From a virus, in IMG/VR virus record IMGVR_UViG_3300025872_000295, positions 1 to 24,490 of that record: DNA of 24,490 nucleotides; one strand, written 5' to 3'. This document shows positions 8,910 to 19,914 of this stretch, one piece after another (position 1 is the first letter of the stretch; every line of letters starts with the position of its first letter). Under the pieces are notes generated by a model. That model was not told the DNA's origin. It ran no database searches and saw nothing but the letters and a program-made list of their open reading frames with translations. The translations under genes were made by a program, and so were the position numbers.

Positions 8910-11900
8910 CTACCTGTTTGCGTACCGTCTTAGCAAGAGTTCTTCTTGGAGTGTATATCCGCCGCGAGCTTTTTTGACGCGCTGGGCGTCGATGTAAGCC
9001 TGAGCTTCCTGTTCGCTTTTAATTCCGATGGCGTCCGGATTTTTCCCGGTCTGCTCCATGAAAAGCGTTTTCCACATGGTTGGATGGCCCGGCTTTTTGA
9101 GCATTACTCCGTCACCAGTCATTGACGACCAGTGATAGCGGTTCTTGTCATACGGATCACGTTCTGGACGTATGCCAGCTTTCCAAGCCGTAATGTAATC
9201 ATAGTCAGCGTTCTGCCCAAGATTGGGGCATTCATTAAATTCTTTGCAGAACTCTGAGTACCAAGGATGCTTTTTAATTTCAGCCTCAATACGCTGACGT
9301 TCAGCATCAACGCTGCCGCCACGAGCTTTTTTGACTATGCCGCCATGCGCTCTTTGATTCATGGCCAAAAGCCGGAATAACTCCCGACGCTTTTCTACCG
9401 GAGTCGCGTTAAAAGTTTGTGCATTTAACAAGAACTCTGGATTAAGGCCACCGCCCATCTCGGGGCTACGGGTAGATGACATCAATCCTTGAAGGCGTTC
9501 TTTTTGCTCGGGAGTCAAGTCTTCAAACGAGTATCCTTGAGGGGCAACGGCTTCTTCACGCGGCGATGGCGCAGGCTCTTCCGCTGGAGAGGGTTCGGCT
9601 GACAGGTCTTCGCTGTCCTCAAAGCCGCCGGGAATAAAGTCTGCTGCTTCTGCTCTTTGAGCTTCTTGCTCAACCCGAGCGCGTTCCTCGCCACTCAAGG
9701 CCGTTTTGCCAGAGGTATAAAAAGATCGCGGCAGAACACGAGACAAAGAGTCAGCCATCTTTCCAAGCGACACCGGGTTGCTCAGGTCAAACTTAATGGT
9801 GGTGACCGTGTTAGCCAGTTTCTGCACACCGTTAGGGTCAAGCATCAATTCCATGATGGCTTCGTCGGTCGCAGTAGCAAGCTGAGAACTGTTGTACTTA
9901 GACAACAAACGAACGACTTTTTGAGGAAGGCTTGTAATGCGGTCGCGCAGCGTGGACGACAGGTAAGGAATATCAATACCCGGCACGATCTGAGCCAGCG
10001 CATCAAGCTCTCTGCGATCAATCGCTACACCCAACTTGGATATGTCCGCTGCCGACACCTTGTCAGAGAACAACGCCAACTTGCGCAAAGACGGCTGGAA
10101 CGCCTCGCCAAAGACAGCTTCAATGCCAGCCTTGTTAGCCGGGTCCATGACGTACTGCATGAATCCGTTGGCATTACGACGGCCAAGGTTAATAACCTCA
10201 AGTCGCAGCGCGTTTCTAACAGCCTTGGCAGTGTCGGCATCAAGGTCCTTAATGTCGCGCATGATCTTTTGGCGTTGACGAGGATTGTTGATGACATTTG
10301 AGGCTAACGTGGAATAGTCTGGCGCATCGAACTGAGTCAAAGCGTTATTGGCAACGCGAGCTTCCGCAGCCTTAGCGGCCTTATCTAGCGATCCAAGGCG
10401 CGAGCGCAACTCACGATCATCCAGAACGGCCTTCCGCAATTTATCTTCAAGGCCCGGAATCTGCGAAATAATTTCCTTTTTGTCCTTTAAGTACTTGGAC
10501 AATTTTCCAGCGTTAAGCATTCCGTCCTTAACGGCTTTATCGTAAACCTCAGAAATGATCGCATTTTCGGCAATTTGGTCGCCAGACTCTTTGCCAACGG
10601 CTTTAATGAACTGTCTATAAGACTCGGCATTTTTAACAATAACCGGAGCTACTTGGGTTGCATACTTTTTAGAGTCAACGTCTTTAATGCCCTGAGCGCC
10701 AAAAGGAATGCCAATTTTCTCAACGTACTTTAAATCAATGTCATTAAGACGCTTACTGAAGTCACCCGGAATAGTTTCGCGAGCAGCGTCCACAACCTCT
10801 TCAAGTTGCAAAACCTTGCGCATAGAGTCTTCACTCATACGCTGACGCTTCAAGCCGTTGATTGCCTTCTTTAGAGACTCTACGTTGTCAAACGAAATGG
10901 GAATATGCTCAAGCACAGTTTCTGAGGTGCCCGGAACAGGAAACTCCTTGGGCGACAGGAACTTCATAATGTCGCTGTCAACCTTGGTGCCCTTGCCAAA
11001 GATGTCACGCAGATTGTTTTGACGAACAAACTGATAGATCTGTTCAACGCCTTCAACTGGCATCTTGACGCCAGCCTCTCTGGCTTCGGCCAAAAGCTTT
11101 TCGTAATCAGGGGAAACTTCGTTTTTAGCTGCTTTTTTGCGTTGTTCTATCAGGGCCTCAATTCGAGTTCCCAATGTCTCAGGGTCCATTACCGGAGTGA
11201 CACCCTCGGTAAGGTTGTTTAATTCATCTTCAATGTCCTTACGCTGCCGTTGGACAGCAGGGGCAACCTTGAGTCCGGCTTCTGGCTTAACTTCAGCGCT
11301 ATACGGCTTGCCAAACATCTTCTCGCTTTTGGCTTGAATGTCAGAAGATGCCTGCTGAACAACGCGATTAACCTTTTCGCGGAAAGACGGGTTGATCTTG
11401 GCAAGTCGCTCTACTTGCTGGCGAATGACCGGGTTGTCGGCCATGGCAATAACGAGAGGAGCATCGGACTTGTTTACAAACTGAGAGGCGTCGTTAACCA
11501 ACTGAATAAGCGCATCAACAGACTCTGCACCCTGCTCCTTCGCGGCAAGTTCAAGCAAACTCTTTGCAGCACCACGAGCATACGTTTCAGTCACTTCCGG
11601 TTTGCCCTTCAGCAAGTTCCGGTTCTTCGTGATCTGATCCAAGCTTCTAGCAAGAGCGTCCGTTACCACCTCTCTAGGAGCAGCTGTTCCAACGCCGCCA
11701 AGGATGCTTCCAGCCAAACGACCTACACCAGTAGACTCTTCGCCCGTAACGGCACGCTCAATAGACTCACCAGCCTTTCCGCCAATCTCACCAAAAGCGC
11801 CAGTCAAGAACTCGGAAGCAGCACGAACAGGTGTCTTGAGCAGGCCAACCCCGCCGCCAATATAGCTCGTAGGATCAGCAACGGCCTCTACACCAGCGCC

Positions 11901-12407
11901 AACCACTTCACTGATTGGACCGGGCGCACGCATATCAGTCTTAGGCGGCTTAAAACCAACCTTTTCATAAACAGGAGCAATTCGCTTTTGAGACTCAGTA
12001 AAGGCTTCAGAAGCCGCTTGGATAATAGGCTTAGATTCTTCGCCAATGCCGTACACGCGACGCATGACTTCTTCTTGGGGAATGGCACCGGTCTTGGCCA
12101 TTTCAGCAGCAGCCATCTTGCCGTAGCCAGCGCGAAGCAATGCATCCAACGCAGCCGGAGCGTTAATGACGCCTCGCTTAAATGCGTTCAAAAGATACTC
12201 TGTTACGCCAGCAGGTTCTTGGGCAGTCGTTTCTTCAGGCTGCGCAATTTCACGATCACCAATACGAGTGACCGTTACGTCTGGTCGCGGCTGAGTTTGA
12301 GGAGCGCCACCAACCTTAGAATTCAACTCTTCTAGCTCAGCCTGAGTCAATGGCTCGTCAAACTCGAAAGTTTTGCCATTAACAGTGTAAACATGGGGTG
12401 TAGCCAT
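8910..12407 (-). CDS. Very large virion protein, probable DNA-ejection (internal virion) protein
   Basis: The 1165-residue protein starts with a short domain (YTVNGKTFEFDEPLTQ) resembling the N-terminus of many podovirus internal virion proteins. It is then mostly helical and Ala/Lys/Glu-rich with long coiled-coil-like segments, and includes a Gly-rich, weakly hydrophobic stretch near 165-240. Near 1067-1110 there is a module DYDYITAWKAGIRPE followed by HWSS and KKPGHPTMWKTLF, a layout I associate with C-terminal modules of phage ejection proteins. A basic KKARGG motif occurs twice (about 1025 and 1145). I see no lytic transglycosylase or other catalytic motif. It would be packaged and injected to help DNA cross the periplasm; this is inferred from size, composition and position after nozzle and repeat proteins. 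ATG 12407 has AGGGG upstream. Confidence 0.7.
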   Translation of the reverse strand: MATPHVYTVNGKTFEFDEPLTQAELEELNSKVGGAPQTQPRPDVTVTRIGDREIAQPEETTAQEPAGVTEYLLNAFKRGVINAPAALDALLRAGYGKMAAAEMAKTGAIPQEEVMRRVYGIGEESKPIIQAASEAFTESQKRIAPVYEKVGFKPPKTDMRAPGPISEVVGAGVEAVADPTSYIGGGVGLLKTPVRAASEFLTGAFGEIGGKAGESIERAVTGEESTGVGRLAGSILGGVGTAAPREVVTDALARSLDQITKNRNLLKGKPEVTETYARGAAKSLLELAAKEQGAESVDALIQLVNDASQFVNKSDAPLVIAMADNPVIRQQVERLAKINPSFREKVNRVVQQASSDIQAKSEKMFGKPYSAEVKPEAGLKVAPAVQRQRKDIEDELNNLTEGVTPVMDPETLGTRIEALIEQRKKAAKNEVSPDYEKLLAEAREAGVKMPVEGVEQIYQFVRQNNLRDIFGKGTKVDSDIMKFLSPKEFPVPGTSETVLEHIPISFDNVESLKKAINGLKRQRMSEDSMRKVLQLEEVVDAARETIPGDFSKRLNDIDLKYVEKIGIPFGAQGIKDVDSKKYATQVAPVIVKNAESYRQFIKAVGKESGDQIAENAIISEVYDKAVKDGMLNAGKLSKYLKDKKEIISQIPGLEDKLRKAVLDDRELRSRLGSLDKAAKAAEARVANNALTQFDAPDYSTLASNVINNPRQRQKIMRDIKDLDADTAKAVRNALRLEVINLGRRNANGFMQYVMDPANKAGIEAVFGEAFQPSLRKLALFSDKVSAADISKLGVAIDRRELDALAQIVPGIDIPYLSSTLRDRITSLPQKVVRLLSKYNSSQLATATDEAIMELMLDPNGVQKLANTVTTIKFDLSNPVSLGKMADSLSRVLPRSFYTSGKTALSGEERARVEQEAQRAEAADFIPGGFEDSEDLSAEPSPAEEPAPSPREEAVAPQGYSFEDLTPEQKERLQGLMSSTRSPEMGGGLNPEFLLNAQTFNATPVEKRRELFRLLAMNQRAHGGIVKKARGGSVDAERQRIEAEIKKHPWYSEFCKEFNECPNLGQNADYDYITAWKAGIRPERDPYDKNRYHWSSMTGDGVMLKKPGHPTMWKTLFMEQTGKNPDAIGIKSEQEAQAYIDAQRVKKARGGYTLQEELLLRRYANR

Positions 12408-12419
12408 TTAATGCCCCTA

Positions 12420-13619
12420 TTAATTAGTCTGTCGGCCAGCTTTGCCGGTACTCAACGTAATACCAGTAGATTTTTTATTTGCCTTAGCTTCATCTTCAGC
12501 TCGCTTTTTCTGAGCTGCAATACGTTGCTTTTCGGATGAAGTTAGCCATTTTCTTCCAACAATTCTTTCGACGGCTTCTTGAGAAATGTCGCTTGACCCA
12601 GAAAAAGTATCTAATACGCTTTCTCTTCCAGAGTTGTATTGAGGCGCAAGCAGGTCCTCAATGACTAAAAGAACTTTTTCTTTATCTTCTAAAGACAAGT
12701 CAGACGGAATGCCGCTTAAAAAATTAGAAATACTGTTAACAACCCTTGTTGGGAAGCTGCCAGCATTGGCAATGGTATTTACTTCAAGTACGCTTAACTG
12801 CTTATCACCTTGCAGTCCAGCAAGAAATCTATCTAGCTGCTTGCTTGCTGTTGGACTGCCTTCTTTTGCAGCCTTTAAAAGAGATTGCGCCTGAGAAACA
12901 GATGCTAGCTTTGCGCTAATTGGAGCAAGTTTTCGATCACGAACAGATGCAACGCGAGCCTGAACAACGCTGCTTGGTCTGTTTGGATCTGGCTCAGCTT
13001 TTTCAGGGCGAGACTTTTTAATCAAGTCTGCTTTAAAATTTAAATATTCTTCTAACGTCATTCCCATAGAAGCCGCGTTCTTTTCATCAGTAGTCCGAGA
13101 GTCGCGAGCTTGAGTCGGCTCTCTGAAATACTGAGCCATCAACTGTCGAGCTTGCGAACCTTCCTTCTGAGCACGCTCCATGCGGTACTTGGCAGCAAGT
13201 TGGTCCAACTGCAACGCCTTGGCTTCGGCTTCCTTACGGGCTTCGGCCTGCTCGCCGCCATACTCACCAATGTCACGCAAGAATGTATACAGGTTCCGTC
13301 GCTCGTAAAAACGCGGATCACTTTCTTTACGCGGCTGAGTCAGACGCATGGCAATGTTGCGCAATTCCTCGCCCTTGCTGGGCTGTGCAAGAAGACGCTG
13401 TTTGGCCTGCTCAATCGTACTAAGAACCGTGTTGAAGTCTTGCTTTTCGGATTCAGACGCGGCCTTTTCTCTCTCTAAGAGACGCTTAAAGAGTTCCGAG
13501 CGCAATCCGCCAACAGAGGGTACAGCCGAAAGCCCAGACTGAGACTCCTCGTCTTCGGTGTATTCTTCTTCTGGAAGGTAGTCCGACTCAAGGCCGTACA
13601 GTTCGTTTTCGTCTTCCAT
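12420..13619 (-). CDS. Helical, highly charged virion-associated protein
   Basis: A 399-residue protein with an acidic N-terminus (YLPEEEYTEDEESQ), a long charged helical region (EQAEARKEAEAKALQLDQL) likely to form coiled coil, and a basic tail (QKKRAEDEAKANKK). I do not recognise a family. Its position between two large repeat-rich virion proteins and the 1165-residue protein suggests a second ejection or internal virion protein. I chose ATG 13619 because GGGGG lies 6 bases upstream; an in-frame TTG at 13625 would overlap the previous stop. The 3' third looks more AT-rich than the neighbouring genes, by eye. Confidence 0.65.
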   Translation of the reverse strand: MEDENELYGLESDYLPEEEYTEDEESQSGLSAVPSVGGLRSELFKRLLEREKAASESEKQDFNTVLSTIEQAKQRLLAQPSKGEELRNIAMRLTQPRKESDPRFYERRNLYTFLRDIGEYGGEQAEARKEAEAKALQLDQLAAKYRMERAQKEGSQARQLMAQYFREPTQARDSRTTDEKNAASMGMTLEEYLNFKADLIKKSRPEKAEPDPNRPSSVVQARVASVRDRKLAPISAKLASVSQAQSLLKAAKEGSPTASKQLDRFLAGLQGDKQLSVLEVNTIANAGSFPTRVVNSISNFLSGIPSDLSLEDKEKVLLVIEDLLAPQYNSGRESVLDTFSGSSDISQEAVERIVGRKWLTSSEKQRIAAQKKRAEDEAKANKKSTGITLSTGKAGRQTN

Positions 13620-13621
13620 GA

Positions 13622-15079
13622 TCAACCCCCCTCAGTCGGGGTAACAAAAACTTCATCGTTGGTGTTAATCCGCCCCGGATCATACTGGCCAGTTTCATCT
13701 GACGGAGAAGATCCGCCGGGGAAATACTTGTTAATCAAGTCAATAATTTCTTTAATGCCAGTCGCGCCACTAATTGCCTTCTCAATTGCAGACGCACCAC
13801 CCGGCTGAGCAGGAGTCTCAACCGTTGTAGAAATCTCCGTCTTAGGCAAGTTAATGCCCTTGAGAATGTCAGACATAAACTTGATCTGTTCTTTTGAATA
13901 CCCTTCTTGACGCAAGAAGTCTTGATAAGCCAGATCCAAGTTGGCTTGCTGCATGACACGCTCTTTAGCGCCAACGCCAGTAATCGCTTCAGCGCCCTTG
14001 AGGCCAAGCGCCTGCTCAGTCTCGCCCAGCATTGAGTACTTAGAAGCCAAGTCACGCAGAGCCTGCGCATCCTGAACAGACAACTGGCCCTTGGATTCGC
14101 CAATACGAGCCAAGTTGGCCGCGTCTTGAGCCGTGAGCGTACCCGTAGCCTTGCCGATGTCGGCCAGTCGAGCAGCATCTTCTGCCGTCAACTGACCCAT
14201 CTTGGCACCGATGTCAGCAATGCTCTGACCGCTCTGTAGCAGACGGTTGTAGTCTGCCGTGCTCAATTGACCAGCCGTGCCAGCCAGATCCGCCAAGCGA
14301 GCCACATCACGACCGTAAATGTCCGCAGCCTGACCGTAGCCAGCCTGAAGCGCCTTGGCCTGTTCGCCCAGAACCGCCTGTTGAACATCGCGCAACGCAC
14401 GCGCACCAAACTCACCCATGCGGGTCGAGCCGGGACCAACGCCAAACTGTCCGGCGCTAATAAATTCTTGGCCAACTGCCGGAAGATATTTTTCCTGCAA
14501 CTGGCGAACGCCCTGCTTGCCAATTTCTTCCACGACGCCCTGAATGTAGGGATTCATGTACTCCTGAGCCGCTTGGGGGAATGTTCGAGCCGCTGCTGAC
14601 ATATACGGCTGCGCTGCTGATAGTGCCGATCCAGCCCCTGCGCGTTGAAGAGCGTCGATGCCTTGCGCAAACATGGGTTGGGCCGCGCCGACCCCAGACA
14701 TTCCAGCAGCGCGAGTAAACATAGGCGCAGCCGCTTCGGCTCCACGCATTCCCGCAGCCGTTGTAAAGTCTTCAGCAGCCGCCCCCAATCCGCTCATACC
14801 TCCGGCTCGGCCTAGTTCGGCCCCGGCTTGCTTCAGGAACGGTTGATACGATGTGGCAGCAGCTTTAGTAGCCTCAAACCCAGCCTTTTCATCGGGGGTA
14901 AAGCCAGCAATGCGCGGCCCGGTGTACTGAGCGTATGGAAGGTCGGCAACAGCCTTAGCGCGACCCAGCATGTCTGTGGTGTACTGGGTATACCACTCTG
15001 GCAACTGAATCTGAGATGTGCTGCTAGTAGTACCGGGTGTCGGGGCGCTGCCCTCAAACAAGAAATCTACAACGCTCAT
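13622..15079 (-). CDS. Repeat-rich structural protein of the tail or ejection apparatus
   Basis: This 485-residue protein opens with LPEWYTQYTTDMLGRAKAV and then YAQYTGPRIAGFTPDE (49-64), a signature I associate with structural proteins of environmental phages. Residues 95-160 hold Ala/Gly/Met repeats of about 16 residues (GMSGLGAAAEDF, GMRGAEAAAPMF, GMSGVGAAQPMF). Residues 261-345 hold about four helical repeats of 18 to 25 residues. The C-terminus is acidic and Pro/Gly-rich. The start shares a base with the preceding stop (TAATG), and GGAGGG lies upstream. A virion role fits the position between the nozzle group and the large ejection-type protein. The exact function is unknown. Confidence 0.68.
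   Translation of the reverse strand: MSVVDFLFEGSAPTPGTTSSTSQIQLPEWYTQYTTDMLGRAKAVADLPYAQYTGPRIAGFTPDEKAGFEATKAAATSYQPFLKQAGAELGRAGGMSGLGAAAEDFTTAAGMRGAEAAAPMFTRAAGMSGVGAAQPMFAQGIDALQRAGAGSALSAAQPYMSAAARTFPQAAQEYMNPYIQGVVEEIGKQGVRQLQEKYLPAVGQEFISAGQFGVGPGSTRMGEFGARALRDVQQAVLGEQAKALQAGYGQAADIYGRDVARLADLAGTAGQLSTADYNRLLQSGQSIADIGAKMGQLTAEDAARLADIGKATGTLTAQDAANLARIGESKGQLSVQDAQALRDLASKYSMLGETEQALGLKGAEAITGVGAKERVMQQANLDLAYQDFLRQEGYSKEQIKFMSDILKGINLPKTEISTTVETPAQPGGASAIEKAISGATGIKEIIDLINKYFPGGSSPSDETGQYDPGRINTNDEVFVTPTEGG
14045..14299 (-). repeat. Tandem helical peptide repeats (GQL-T-x-DAARLADIG type)
   Basis: Within the 485-residue protein, residues 261-345 contain GQLSTADYNRLL, GQLTAEDAARLADIG, GTLTAQDAANLARIG and GQLSVQDAQALRDLA. 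The last three are spaced by exactly 18 residues (54 bases) and the first by 25. The pattern suggests stacked short helices or a coiled-coil shaft. The DNA copies have diverged, so the repeat is not recent. Confidence 0.7.
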
Positions 15080-18066
15080 TAGCTCAACCCTCCGCCCATA
15101 TACTTGTTGGGCGATTTTGCGTCCGGACTAATCTGGCCACGCGAGAGGGCACGACCCTTGTGCTTGCGGATATTAGCACGGAACTGATCCATGCGCCGAG
15201 CACCCTCCTTGGTCGAGCCGTCCCCCAAAAGGGCCAGCGTTTCTGCATCCATTACATATTCCCCATCGCTCAGCAGAGCCGGGATCTTGTCATCGCGCCC
15301 CGAGCCGGGGCCATCAAAATAGCGAGTCTGGCTGGAGCCTCCACCGGCATACCCGGTCAGGCCACCCGTGGCCATGGGCTTATCTTCCTCCGGCGTACTG
15401 GCAGGCGGACCCTCTTCCAAAGGCGGCTGAGTCGGTTGCTCCAACTGCATGGAGTCTTCAAAGAACTTAGCCTCTGGCCGCGTGCCATAGGTGTAGTAGT
15501 CAATGTCCGGACTCAATTGCTTGCGGGTATAGACGTACTTCGGCAGCGCACCGCCCAAACTTGGGGCTGTTGGCTTGGTCACCGGAGTCGTTGGCGTTTT
15601 TGCCCCAGCCGCACCCAAAGCGCCTAGCAGTTTCAGTAAGTTTTCCAGATTGGCGTACTTGTCCATCAACGCCTTCAGCGGATTTTCCGCTTCTGTTGGC
15701 GTGTCAAACTCTGGTGGCTTTTCGGGCAGATCCACGGGAGTCTTTAGCGGAGGCACAATCGGCGGCAAATCAAGCTCCGGCAGCGTCGGTTTTGTTGTTT
15801 CAACAACCACTTCATCCAGAGGCTCTTCATCCTCCGGAGGTTCTTCCGCAGGCGGCTCAAACTGAGGCGGCTCAGTTGGCAAATCAACTGGCGTTTCAAG
15901 CGGAGGCACAAACGGGGGCAAATCTAACCCCGGTAGCGTCGGTTTTGTTGTTTCAACAACCACTTCATCCAGCGGGCCTTCTTCTTCCGGCGGTTCTTCA
16001 CCCACTTCCGGCGTAGGCTCAAATTGCGGCGGAGCTTCTGGCAACGTCACCGGAGTGCTAAGGGGCGGTACAAATGGCGGAATCGGCAGGTCAATAGGAA
16101 TTGGCTTCCCGGTCTGAACAATAACTTCATCCAAAGGATCGGAATACCATGGAGTTTCGTCAGCAATTTCTAAAGGCGGCTCTTCAAACTGCGGCGGAGC
16201 CTCGGGTAATGTGACCGGAGTAGTAGTTGGGGGTACAACCGGCGGAACAATCGGCACAGCCGGAGCCTTCGTGCCAGTCACCACGACCTCATCTAAAGGA
16301 CCCGGTTCAGCCGGTGTAGTCGGTGTTGCGCCAGCGCCACCACTTGCAGCACCCGCAGCACCTGCCGCGCCAGCGCCTAAAGCGGCAAGTTGAGCAGCAG
16401 TTAACCCGCCACTAGCAACAATCGGGAACGTAGCCGTACCAAGACCAGCAGCACTCACCGCACCCGGAATCAAGCCAGTCGGCACAACGCCAGTCAGCGC
16501 ACCAGCGCCAGCAGCGCCAGCAGCGCCTGCTCCAGCACCACCAGCCGCCCCCGCGCCCGCACCAGCGCCAGCCCCACTACCAGCACCAGCACCAAACAAG
16601 CCGGGAATTGCAGTAGCACCCATGGCAGCCGCAGCTAACATGGTAAGCTCCTTAACCGGCAGTTTGCTCAGCAGCGTCTCCTTGGCTTTAACCCCCAGCA
16701 TCGGATCAACGTAGCCAGCCTGTCCACCAAGTGCGGCAACATTTCGCTCGATAGCTTGCTCTTTACTAAATTCATTGCCGGGACCAATGTATCTCTCTGT
16801 AAAAACCTTAGAAGGCATTTCATTGTAGAACTTGGCAATCTCGTCAGCCGTCATTGGGCCGCGCAATTCACGAAGTTTGTTGGAGTCAATTATGTTTCCA
16901 ACAAAGTCTCCGCCAAGATCACGTTCCGCAGCCAAAGCGCTATCAAACGCGCCAGCAAAATCATTTGCTTTGAGTTGATCGCTAATTTTCTGAAGGGCCT
17001 GCACGCGAGGATTGCTTGTTACAGCTTCTCTCTCAGCGTCGGTAATTGCAGCGGGCTTAGCCACTTCCTGCAAAGCACCAGCCATCTCTGGCGTAACTTC
17101 AAAATCAATAGCAGGCTCTTCAGCGCGAGTTGGCGTTGCTTGTATCCCAGCGCCAGAAGGCGGAGTGGTAACACCAGATGTGCCAGTGAAACCCTGTTGA
17201 AGAAGTCCCGGCTCAAGTGCCAGCTTTTGTAGTTCTTGATTCTTACGCAGGTTGGCGAACAACTCATCAAGCGCACCCATGTTCAAGCCAGTGCTTTCGG
17301 GAGTAGTGGCCCCCTCAACAAAAATATTTGGAGTTGGCTCTTGGGTTACAACAGGTGGTGCAGCAGGTGGTGCAGAAGGGGGTTCAGCCACGCTCAACGG
17401 CGACGGACCAACAGGCTCCGGCGTAGAAACCGCAGTCAATGCCCCAACGGGTTCTTGTACTCGCGCAGCCTGCTCGGCCGCAACACGCGCAGCCTCTTGT
17501 TCAGCAGCCACTCGCGCAGCCTCTTGTTGAGCCAAGCGATCTAATTCAGCCTGACGAGCAATCTGAGCCTGTCGGGCTTCCTCGGCCTGACGAGCAGCAT
17601 CTGCTTGTCGCCGTTGTTCCGCAGCAACGCGGGCAGCCTCTGCTTTCTGAGCAGCAACTCGTTGAGCCTCTGCACGCTGAGCAGCAGCACGTTCGGCCTC
17701 AGCCCTTTGAGCAGCAACACGTTCGGCTTCTGCACGTTGAGCGGCAACACGAGCAGCTTCTTGCTGACGAGCCACTTCTGCCAGTCGAGCGGCCTCCGCT
17801 TGTTGAGCGGCCAAAGCCTGCTGGCGCTGCATCTCAGCCAACTGCTGCTGACGTTGCTGTTCTGCAACACGCGCCTCTTCCGCTCGACGGGCCTGCTCTT
17901 GCTGCTCTGCAATGCGCCGCCGATCTTCTTCAGGATCAGCAGCAACCGTGGCTGACGGGATAGCTCCGTAGGTGTAATACGAAGTGGAAGGAGCCTCTGG
18001 CTGCGGAGCCACCGTGCTCAACGCGCCCCTGCTCAAATCCTCTCGCGCTTCTTTACGTCTTGCCAT
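15079..18066 (-). CDS. 995-residue mosaic virion protein with TolA-like coil, Gly/Ala segment and TonB-box-like repeats
   Basis: Domains in order: a YYTYG motif near 30-35; a TolA-like helical repeat (about 50-205) with 10-residue units such as AAQRAEAERV; a Pro-rich linker; a mixed globular region (265-460); a Gly/Ala-rich hydrophobic segment (about 475-582) with long GAGAG runs; four repeats of 51-54 residues (about 590-785), each opening LDEVVVTGTK, LDEVIVQTGK or LDEVVVETTK and followed by Pro-rich sequence such as PPFVPPLSTPVTLPEAPPQF; a second YYTYG near 856; and a C-terminal domain (about 915-995) with GSGRDDKIPALLSDGEYVM, a motif seen at the end of many phage virion proteins. ATG 18066 has AGGTGA upstream. 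The neighbours make it a tail or ejection protein. Crossing or contacting the cell envelope is my inference. No enzyme motif is visible. Confidence 0.72.
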   Translation of the reverse strand: MARRKEAREDLSRGALSTVAPQPEAPSTSYYTYGAIPSATVAADPEEDRRRIAEQQEQARRAEEARVAEQQRQQQLAEMQRQQALAAQQAEAARLAEVARQQEAARVAAQRAEAERVAAQRAEAERAAAQRAEAQRVAAQKAEAARVAAEQRRQADAARQAEEARQAQIARQAELDRLAQQEAARVAAEQEAARVAAEQAARVQEPVGALTAVSTPEPVGPSPLSVAEPPSAPPAAPPVVTQEPTPNIFVEGATTPESTGLNMGALDELFANLRKNQELQKLALEPGLLQQGFTGTSGVTTPPSGAGIQATPTRAEEPAIDFEVTPEMAGALQEVAKPAAITDAEREAVTSNPRVQALQKISDQLKANDFAGAFDSALAAERDLGGDFVGNIIDSNKLRELRGPMTADEIAKFYNEMPSKVFTERYIGPGNEFSKEQAIERNVAALGGQAGYVDPMLGVKAKETLLSKLPVKELTMLAAAAMGATAIPGLFGAGAGSGAGAGAGAGAAGGAGAGAAGAAGAGALTGVVPTGLIPGAVSAAGLGTATFPIVASGGLTAAQLAALGAGAAGAAGAASGGAGATPTTPAEPGPLDEVVVTGTKAPAVPIVPPVVPPTTTPVTLPEAPPQFEEPPLEIADETPWYSDPLDEVIVQTGKPIPIDLPIPPFVPPLSTPVTLPEAPPQFEPTPEVGEEPPEEEGPLDEVVVETTKPTLPGLDLPPFVPPLETPVDLPTEPPQFEPPAEEPPEDEEPLDEVVVETTKPTLPELDLPPIVPPLKTPVDLPEKPPEFDTPTEAENPLKALMDKYANLENLLKLLGALGAAGAKTPTTPVTKPTAPSLGGALPKYVYTRKQLSPDIDYYTYGTRPEAKFFEDSMQLEQPTQPPLEEGPPASTPEEDKPMATGGLTGYAGGGSSQTRYFDGPGSGRDDKIPALLSDGEYVMDAETLALLGDGSTKEGARRMDQFRANIRKHKGRALSRGQISPDAKSPNKYMGGGLS
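15700..16300 (-). repeat. Four tandem 51-54-residue LDEVVV/Pro-rich repeats
   Basis: The marker ACTTCATCCA (or ACCTCATCTA) recurs at 15809, 15962, 16124 and 16286, giving periods of 153, 162 and 162 bases, all multiples of three. The two copies nearest the gene's 3' end are almost identical over about 45 bases from GCGTCGGTTTTG onwards, which suggests a recent duplication or recombination between copies. The other two are more diverged. Confidence 0.85.
17648..17767 (-). repeat. Tandem 30-base repeats encoding a 10-residue helical unit
   Basis: TGAGC(A/G)GCA(A/G)C recurs at 17648, 17678, 17708 and 17738 with exact 30-base spacing, encoding AAQRAEAERV-type units of the large virion protein. 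Weaker copies continue on both sides. The array has no spacers and stays in frame, so it is a protein-coding minisatellite that could change length by slippage. Confidence 0.85.
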
Positions 18067-18073
18067 AGTTCAC

Positions 18074-18307
18074 CTAATCCAAAACTTGATAGAAACGGAT
18101 TGCCCATTCGCGCCAATCGTCATACTGATAAGGCGACGGCGGGTTCTGCTGGGAAATCCCATTGATGCCAATGATGCCAGCCGCCCAATTCTGCCACTCA
18201 GATTCGTTTTCCAAGCGGGCTATTGGGCCAAACTGCTCAAGATCATAAACGGTTACGTCCGCCCAATCTTGCAGCCGCATGGTTCTCGGATCAACCAAGC
18301 GGGTCAT
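18074..18307 (-). CDS. Small conserved tail-module protein
   Basis: A 77-residue, Trp-rich protein (LQDWADVTVYDLEQFGPIA, WQNWAAGIIG, YDDWREWAIRFYQVLD). Small proteins with this Trp/Asp pattern occur in many environmental podovirus-like phages directly after the nozzle-type gene; no function is known to me. It starts in an ATGA overlap with the nozzle gene, and the 995-residue protein starts 7 bases after its stop. A structural or assembly role is likely. Confidence 0.72.
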   Translation of the reverse strand: MTRLVDPRTMRLQDWADVTVYDLEQFGPIARLENESEWQNWAAGIIGINGISQQNPPSPYQYDDWREWAIRFYQVLD

Positions 18308-19914
18308 GGGTTCTCTCCCAAGACCGTGCCCGTAGCCGGTTCGATATGAGCAATAATTTGCCCCATCTGGTAGTTGCCACCCAGTATGTTGCTCTCAAAG
18401 CGGAACCGTAACTCACGGCGAATCTCGCGGAAATAAACCAACTGTTGCTGACGGTCAGTCAAATTGGAATAGATCGTTTGCGGGTCGCTTGTGACTTCGC
18501 CTGCTCTAGCATTGGCGCGACCAGTAATTCGCACGGTCATGTTTCCAGACTGCACGAAGTCAGGCTCAATGAACTCAACGCGAACCGCCATGTTTTGAGG
18601 TTGTTCGCTGGTCATTAGCGACATATCTGCTGTTTCAAAAAACGACTGAATTGGCCTAATCTCTGTGCCGTTGATTTCGTCGGTGCCGTACTCGTGCTGC
18701 CAAACCACGTAGCCCTTTTGATTATTAATGATGCGGTAGTCGCCATTCTCGGTAATACGCAAATCATCGTTTTCGGTTTCGCGCAAATTCGTATCGGTCG
18801 TATCAATGACCCCAATGGCCAAAGGTGAGTTAAATACCTGCGCGTACTGACCGGCAGACCGACCACCACCGGGCAACTCCGTGTCGTACCACGTATTCTC
18901 GCGCACGTTGTAGATCACCGCATGCGTACACTCGGTCGCATTGCCACGCGGGTAACACCACCAGATCTCGCCCCAACGAGGAATCTTGAATGCAAAAACT
19001 TTTTGCCGTTGGGCGTAGTTCAGGTTGTCGTAGAACCAGTTGAGGTTTAGGCTGTTTGGCACCTCACGCACGACACCGTTGAACATCAAGAATCGGTCAA
19101 CGCCGCACCAGAAGTAGATGCCGTCATACTCAATGACGCTTTGGCCAGAGAGGATGCTTGACTGCGAGGTGATCGTGTCAAACTGAAACACCGCAGATCC
19201 GCCAACGTAAGAGGCGCGAACCACCGAGTCCAACGACCAGAAAAGACCGGCAGGCGCATTGCCTGCACCAGCGCGAAGCGGCAAACCTTTTAAGATTTTT
19301 TGGCTAGTAACACGAGCGGCACCAGAGTCACCTCCAGTCCAGTCGTCCGTATAACCAGCGCGGCTCCACTGAACGAAGCCATCGGAGCCATAAGCAAACA
19401 CATACGGAGCCAAAGCAACTATGCCGCCCGATACGGTTACCTGTGGAACTGGGGATAATGGAGTTGTTCCGTTGTCGTACCCACGGTAAAGCTGTCCGCT
19501 AGCATCAGACGAGATGTCCTCAACGTCATTAGAAACATGAGCCAGTATTTCGTTCTGATTGGTTGTGGTGTTGTACGCCACATCAAAATGCCACAAAGCA
19601 TTGACGTTAGAAACGTAAGCCGGATCAGTTCGGTTGATGATGTTGCTGGCTAAGCTGTTCTGATCTAACCGAAAACGGAAAACACCATCCGATGTTCCGA
19701 TGTGGACATAGGTAAAAGAGTTGTGGTTGTGGATGTACATGCCACGCGCAATGTTGTCCAAAGAATCTTGGACTGCGCGAAAGCCGCCTATCTTTCTTGG
19801 CAACCCACGCTGAAACCGGACCCACTGTCCATCAACGTAATAATTACCCTCGAACTTGGTACCGTCGCGCTTGATACCGGGTTCAGAGCGAACAATAACC
19901 GGCTGCAACGGCAT
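18304..19914 (-). CDS. Tail nozzle / DNA-stabilization-type protein (P22 gp10-like role)
   Basis: The 536-residue, beta-rich protein begins with the family-typical pattern PLQPVIVRSEPGIKRDGTKF, then GQWVRFQRGLPRKIGGF. Repeated aromatic beta segments (SDGVFRFRLD, LAPYVFAYGSDGFVQW, FSLD/FWSLDSV) suggest a beta-propeller or similar fold, as in nozzle proteins that plug and stabilise packaged DNA below the adaptor. Near 376-395 there is an internal LRETENDDLRITENGDYRI repeat. The start forms a TAATG junction with the fibre gene. The family assignment is from motif memory; the nozzle role is supported by the adaptor gene just upstream and the large ejection-type proteins downstream. Confidence 0.75.
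   Translation of the reverse strand: MPLQPVIVRSEPGIKRDGTKFEGNYYVDGQWVRFQRGLPRKIGGFRAVQDSLDNIARGMYIHNHNSFTYVHIGTSDGVFRFRLDQNSLASNIINRTDPAYVSNVNALWHFDVAYNTTTNQNEILAHVSNDVEDISSDASGQLYRGYDNGTTPLSPVPQVTVSGGIVALAPYVFAYGSDGFVQWSRAGYTDDWTGGDSGAARVTSQKILKGLPLRAGAGNAPAGLFWSLDSVVRASYVGGSAVFQFDTITSQSSILSGQSVIEYDGIYFWCGVDRFLMFNGVVREVPNSLNLNWFYDNLNYAQRQKVFAFKIPRWGEIWWCYPRGNATECTHAVIYNVRENTWYDTELPGGGRSAGQYAQVFNSPLAIGVIDTTDTNLRETENDDLRITENGDYRIINNQKGYVVWQHEYGTDEINGTEIRPIQSFFETADMSLMTSEQPQNMAVRVEFIEPDFVQSGNMTVRITGRANARAGEVTSDPQTIYSNLTDRQQQLVYFREIRRELRFRFESNILGGNYQMGQIIAHIEPATGTVLGENP

Follow-up and report, generated by a model that had tools for sequence, protein, structure and literature searches.

The window analysed here is the IMG/VR virus record IMGVR_UViG_3300025872_000295, a stretch of 24,490 bases in which a single open reading frame encodes a 995-residue protein bearing four short repeated boxes. 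The genes upstream of it correspond by profile matches to a holin, an M15 endolysin, an SU10-type adaptor, a tail fibre and a P22-type stabilisation/nozzle-like protein. From the nozzle-like gene onward the order is a 77-residue gene, the 995-residue gene and then genes of 485, 401 and 1165 residues, after which the genes lie on the opposite strand (Table 1). The same order is found in Caulobacter phage GB2A, Phage DSL-LC04 and MW202545, where the last member of the block is named as a 'lytic tail protein', a 'DNA transfer protein' or a transglycosylase.

The 995-residue gene therefore sits between the nozzle/stabilisation gene and the opposite-strand genes, which is the place of a podovirus ejection block. 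Because the gene order matches that block, we infer that its product is the podoviral ejection (internal virion) protein that comes first in the block, corresponding in position to T7 gp14 or P22 gp7; the basis is gene order rather than homology, since profile searches detected no relationship to either protein. With the podovirus ejection proteins (T7 gp14–gp16; P22 gp7, gp20 and gp16; PMC8954989) it shares the order after the adaptor and nozzle/stabilisation genes, a hydrophobic segment and large disordered regions, but it is 995 residues long as compared to approximately 200 for gp14, and no Ton box has been described in those proteins. A first-pass annotation of this DNA had proposed a virion protein that acts at entry, and the gene order supports that placement.

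Table 1. Positions of the genes and protein segments discussed in the text.
Feature	Position	Strand	Remark
995-residue box-bearing protein, single ORF	15079..18066	−	Opens the putative ejection block; order as in Caulobacter phage GB2A, Phage DSL-LC04 and MW202545
N-terminal Ala/Glu/Arg/Gln helix ('TolA-like'), residues 45–203	17458..17934	−	AF2 pLDDT ~93; variable accessory part
Gly/Ala-rich uncharged hydrophobic segment, residues 470–585	16312..16659	−	Candidate membrane-active part
Acidic proline-rich arm with boxes, residues 586–800	15667..16311	−	Predicted disordered (composition and pLDDT)
Ton-box-like motif 1, PLDEVVVTGTKA, residues 590–601	16264..16299	−	Contains DEVVVTG
Ton-box-like motif 2, PLDEVIVQTGKP, residues 644–655	16102..16137	−
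Ton-box-like motif 3, PLDEVVVETTKP, residues 698–709	15940..15975	−
Ton-box-like motif 4, PLDEVVVETTKP, residues 749–760	15787..15822	−	Recent duplicate of motif 3
Conserved C-terminal domain, GPGSGRDDKIPALLSDGEYVMDAETLALLGDGS, residues 891–995	15082..15396	−	Family-defining part; near-invariant in alignments
P22-type stabilisation/nozzle-like virion structural protein	18304..19914	−	Upstream; phrog_3287, E 4.8e-33
Remaining three genes of the putative ejection block (485, 401 and 1165 residues)	8910..15079	−	Same placement and order in GB2A and DSL-LC04

Pfam searches with the protein and 14 of its relatives returned no match, save for one spurious match to WTAP, and a search of the PDB with the 995-residue sequence gave no significant match. 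The approximately 100 C-terminal residues are nearly invariant across the family and tie the window protein to the Caulobacter phages at 41% identity; they also weakly match a tape-measure family (phrog_6090, E 0.0012). The homologous 'tail length tape measure protein' of Caulobacter Riverwalkvirus (RW, RLK, KcrB and GB2A) has the same C-terminal domain, the same gene order and one clear box together with some degenerate ones, but differs in its length (approximately 580 residues), in the absence of the coiled-coil helix and in its first box (PVDEIVVTPSQP, the one good box of GB2A), which lacks the TG. Relatives binned in metagenome-assembled genomes carry mixed host labels. The C-terminal domain occurs in proteins of both the ejection and the tape-measure type, from very different phages, and the loci that carry it include some in Streptomyces and Nocardia genomes. 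A separate lineage of ejection-like proteins (L018, L031, L040, L059, L087 and L107) contains one VIDEVVVTGQMP each; in L018 at least, a C-terminal SDGEFVM-type motif resembles that of the window family.

The four boxes of the window protein follow the pattern PLDEV[VI]V-x-[GT]-[TG]-K and begin, counting the preceding proline, at residues 590, 644, 698 and 749, with spacings of 54, 54 and 51 residues. Four LDEVVV/LDEVIV modules had been described in the first reading of the sequence, and they are present as described. Boxes 3 and 4 differ little in their codons and are therefore considered a recent duplication, whereas boxes 1 and 2 differ in codons at several shared residues. The arm that carries all four is 27% proline, has a net charge of −39 and contains no arginine, so the TonB-like proline-rich linkers noted earlier are real. 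Directly N-terminal to the arm lies a segment that is 61% glycine plus alanine, lacks aspartate and arginine, and includes the peak hydropathy of the whole protein. None of the other ejection genes of the block contains a conserved box. The C-terminus of the neighbouring 485-residue protein (13622–15079, minus strand) reads NDEVFVTPTEGG, and three of its relatives (L237, L239 and L271) end in the sporadic box-like tails ETITVTPSEGG or ETITVTPTEGD.

Structure prediction with AF2, using a shallow alignment of 15 fetched sequences, gave a confident coiled coil at the N-terminus and a confident helical domain at approximately residues 343–460. In contrast, residues 462–941 fell almost wholly below a pLDDT of 50 and contained no strands. 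All four boxes were in this class and without secondary structure, and the arm itself mostly scored between 26 and 44. Burial of the motif within a rigid fold, which would have counted against a Ton-box reading, was thus not predicted; the boxes are instead predicted to lie in an exposed, flexible segment, and given the depth of the alignment the disorder of the arm is supported, short of proven.

The long N-terminal helix had also been likened to TolA. The helix is real as a confident prediction, but the TolA profile TIGR02794 scored 23.8 bits against a cut-off of 59.45, and six of the nine aligned members, among them the Caulobacter phage, lack the helix. We therefore rejected homology to TolA, and since most relatives do without the helix it is not essential. 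Of the earlier interpretation as a whole, the Ton-box likeness holds, the placement in the virion and at entry is supported by gene order, and the TolA part is weak.

A Ton box is the 10-residue segment by which bacterial outer-membrane transporters grip TonB, the protein that supplies them with energy. We selected 30 TonB-dependent receptors by their Plug profile alone and scanned them with a position-specific matrix built from the phage boxes only. In 26 of the 30 the top match was the Ton box following the signal peptide, with scores mostly of 10–23 bits as compared to shuffle means near −2; five of these 26 matches were weak (below 7 bits). Similarity to receptor plug N-termini thus exceeds that of shuffled sequence, and it resides in the box of approximately 12 residues, as searches with the whole 51–54-residue repeats gave no match to receptor or other family profiles.

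A degenerate DNA pattern (LxE[VI][VITA]VT[GA]x[RK..]) was then run on bacterial genomes with the reversed pattern as control. It gave 35 matches, versus four for the reverse, in 36 gammaproteobacterial genomes, where nearly all of the ORFs concerned were receptor-like with the motif right after the signal peptide, and where the Plug domain began just after the motif in all ten ORFs tested. By this measure the pattern appears to be almost a receptor-specific signature in those genomes. In 40 genomes of Actinomycetes (which are monoderm and not known to have a TonB system) the looser pattern matched four times versus three for the reverse, which is background. The stricter pattern was absent from all 395 Actinomycetes genomes and also from all 58 alphaproteobacterial genomes, such that only the looser pattern separates the groups.

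The window boxes also conform, by matrix and pattern, to the Ton-box consensus E-[TEV]-V-[IV]-V followed by T-G/A, and box 1 holds a heptapeptide identical to the published Ton box of the SusC transporter Bt1763 (82-DEVVVTG-88; PMC7782687). The pattern shared with that transporter is 10–12 residues long, includes the T-G/A-x-K/R end and lies in both cases in a flexible segment. However, the phage protein is a viral structural protein with several internal boxes; Pfam searches found neither a Plug domain (PF07715) nor a beta-barrel (PF00593) in it, and it has no signal peptide, so it is not itself a TonB-dependent receptor. In the apo form of Bt1763 the barrel encloses the Ton box, which rests against the plug (PMC7782687). 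A competing strand would accordingly have a place to bind, and the boxes might engage an outer-membrane receptor or another periplasmic partner rather than TonB, for example by displacing the receptor's own Ton box from plug and barrel and thereby opening or jamming the pore. That the likeness runs past the pentapeptide core into the first plug residues (TGxK/R) agrees with such an action, but it would require the arm to extend as far as the barrel's periplasmic side, and we consider this mode of engagement improbable.

To place the boxes in their family, the set of relatives was enlarged beyond the close ones by an alignment-guided scan to 90 non-redundant members. These 90 proteins contain 121 copies of the core [DEPSATNQ]E[VI][VIT]V as compared to a mean of 2.7 (maximum 8) in 200 shuffles, which argues against the suggestion that LDEVVV is a structural strand kept by chance; the reversed core occurs 42 times, a count inflated by low-complexity 'EPEVVVPP' stretches. 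A 12-column matrix at a threshold of at least 15 bits gave 182 forward matches and none in reversed or shuffled sequences, the null counts being the informative part because the matrix was made from the same family. Among 116 distinct boxes chosen by L/I/V/M-x-E-V/I-x-V/I, position +9, which lies outside that selection, is lysine or arginine in 98, position +6 is threonine, glutamate or glutamine in 100, and the preceding residue is proline in 65.

The linker between boxes turns over entirely, from proline-rich in the window protein and three relatives (L006, L013 and L236) to helix-like 'DLAxIGxGGLTAAELLKGFTEP' units in three others (L008, L010 and L011). Across this turnover the boxes are kept (LEEVVVTGNRA, LDEVIVTGSKY, LQEIEVTGKRI, LKEVTVTGTKA and EEEIIVTGSKT). 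Identical box residues within a protein are encoded by different codons in 1070 of 2122 cases, and because half of them differ in this way, selection appears to act on the residues and not on the codons. Each box-bearing relative examined has its most hydrophobic, Gly/Ala-rich stretch ahead of the first box and its linker. The number of boxes at or above 15 bits ranges from zero to seven; 36 of the 90 members, including 13 of the 55 that are at least 700 residues long, have none, and the boxes are therefore not universally needed.

That variable number, the low complexity of the linkers and the recent duplication of boxes 3 and 4 are what one would expect if a generic EVVV strand had been duplicated within a proline-rich spacer and kept, without any partner, for length or solubility. 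Such an expansion is largely refuted, and we regard it as very improbable: the boxes persist as the linkers change from proline-rich to helix-like, the matrix finds nothing in the null sequences, half of the identical residues use different codons, and the likeness is specific to receptors. Nor did a scan of other viral ORFs, 0.55 million residues in all, give any strong box match; in that set the reversed counts are biased, the loci having been picked for the reversed motif. The repeated box very probably functions, with one partner or another, as a linear motif of the Ton-box type.

Among viral sequences at large, the strict pattern LxE[VI]VVTGx[KR] was found in 69 stretches, versus 12 for its reverse. 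Thirty-five of the 69 belong to the window family and the others include unrelated proteins: tail-tube caps (L357, L379 and L380, the latter two being of the T4 baseplate type and matching phrog_230), a tail-tube-like protein (L387), tape measures (L399 and L056/L126) and structural proteins (L361, L364, L366 and L386). Those that can be named are often parts of the delivery conduit. Four further proteins, homologous to one another at 37–42% identity (L052, L102, L106 and L129), carry the motif at differing sites (residues 616, 210 and 486). In three of them (L052:5606–7618, L102:5106–7088 and L129:3314–4876) LDEVVVTG[KNT]R[KR] lies in differing disordered-looking places, as if it had been gained independently. 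Two of the tail-tube caps (L379:866–2095 and L380:2–1255) bear one or two copies within an extension at the N-terminus (LQEVTVTGTRN, LEEVVVTGRRT). Among named phages, the single box of these other families is missing from Porphyromonas tape measures, from the Flavobacterium immuto protein, from DSL-LC04 and from the cyanophage relative, so the motif occurs only sporadically beyond the window family.

Its presence in tail-tube caps and tape measures could equally mean a docking site within the virion, and docking is the main rival explanation, possible though somewhat unlikely in our estimation. The boxes would then be strands that add to a beta-sheet of another phage protein (a partner in the ejection complex or tail tube, as the internal core is assembled or stacked), and the resemblance to Ton boxes would reflect a shared chemistry of strand addition. 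The unrelated virion proteins with the strict motif (L379/L380, L387, L399, L056/L126, L364 and L052/L102/L129) do assemble against one another, and many boxes per chain would suit ring-shaped assemblies. A partner belonging to the phage would not, however, be expected to select the T-G-x-R/K end seen in host receptors; the window family is podovirus-like and has no evident tail tube; none of the neighbouring genes tested matches a TonB-like C-terminal domain; and many box-free members retain the neighbouring 485-residue gene.

The reading that we prefer, at a probability of roughly 0.45, is that the protein is injected into the outer membrane and periplasm and there engages TonB through several Ton-box mimics. 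Occupying the gene position of T7 gp14 and P22 gp7, it would be ejected first, through the tail, and its Gly/Ala-rich hydrophobic segment would insert in or at the outer membrane, with the acidic, disordered arm extending behind it into the periplasm. Each of the four short strands on the arm, copying the host Ton box, would join the C-terminal domain of TonB in the way that a receptor Ton box does, by beta-strand addition, and the abundance of boxes in a virion would draw TonB-ExbBD to the site of entry. The outcome might be that the arm and channel are pulled across by the proton-motive force, that the channel is anchored to the inner-membrane machine, or that TonB is occupied.

Two published findings favour this reading: T7 gp14 is the first protein to be ejected and forms an outer-membrane pore (PMC8954989), and TonB-box-bearing colicins parasitise TonB (PMC11658791). 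Group B colicins and other TonB-box bacteriocins are likewise foreign proteins in which a Ton box exploits TonB, as is proposed for the phage (PMC11658791). Theirs is an N-terminal box joined to a killing domain, whereas the phage protein has four internal boxes (residues 590–760) and no recognisable toxin domain, profile and PDB searches having found no bacteriocin receptor-binding or killing domain in it. This internal placement counts against our preferred reading, as do the box-free members, the GB2A box without TG and the lack of homology to gp14 or gp7.

A broader generalisation, which we put forward as rather doubtful, is that diverse tailed phages of diderm bacteria have converged on a Ton-box mimic, a short linear motif, in the proteins of their genome-delivery conduit (ejection proteins, tape measures and tail-tube caps), with TonB-ExbBD serving them as an energised handle by which protein or DNA enters, whether or not their receptor is TonB-dependent. 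Where phages such as T1 and phi80 depend on TonB, this has been attributed to the receptor that they use. Searches of the open-licence literature found no description of a Ton box in a phage virion protein.

The question bears on how short-tailed phages bring their ejection proteins and their DNA through both membranes, and on the force that helps. Our comparisons suggest that phages may hook TonB during entry. If so, a virion protein equipped with Ton boxes would let the virus seize the transducer of the proton-motive force directly, in parallel with group B colicins, and the boxes would provide a sequence signature for spotting such phages in metagenomes.
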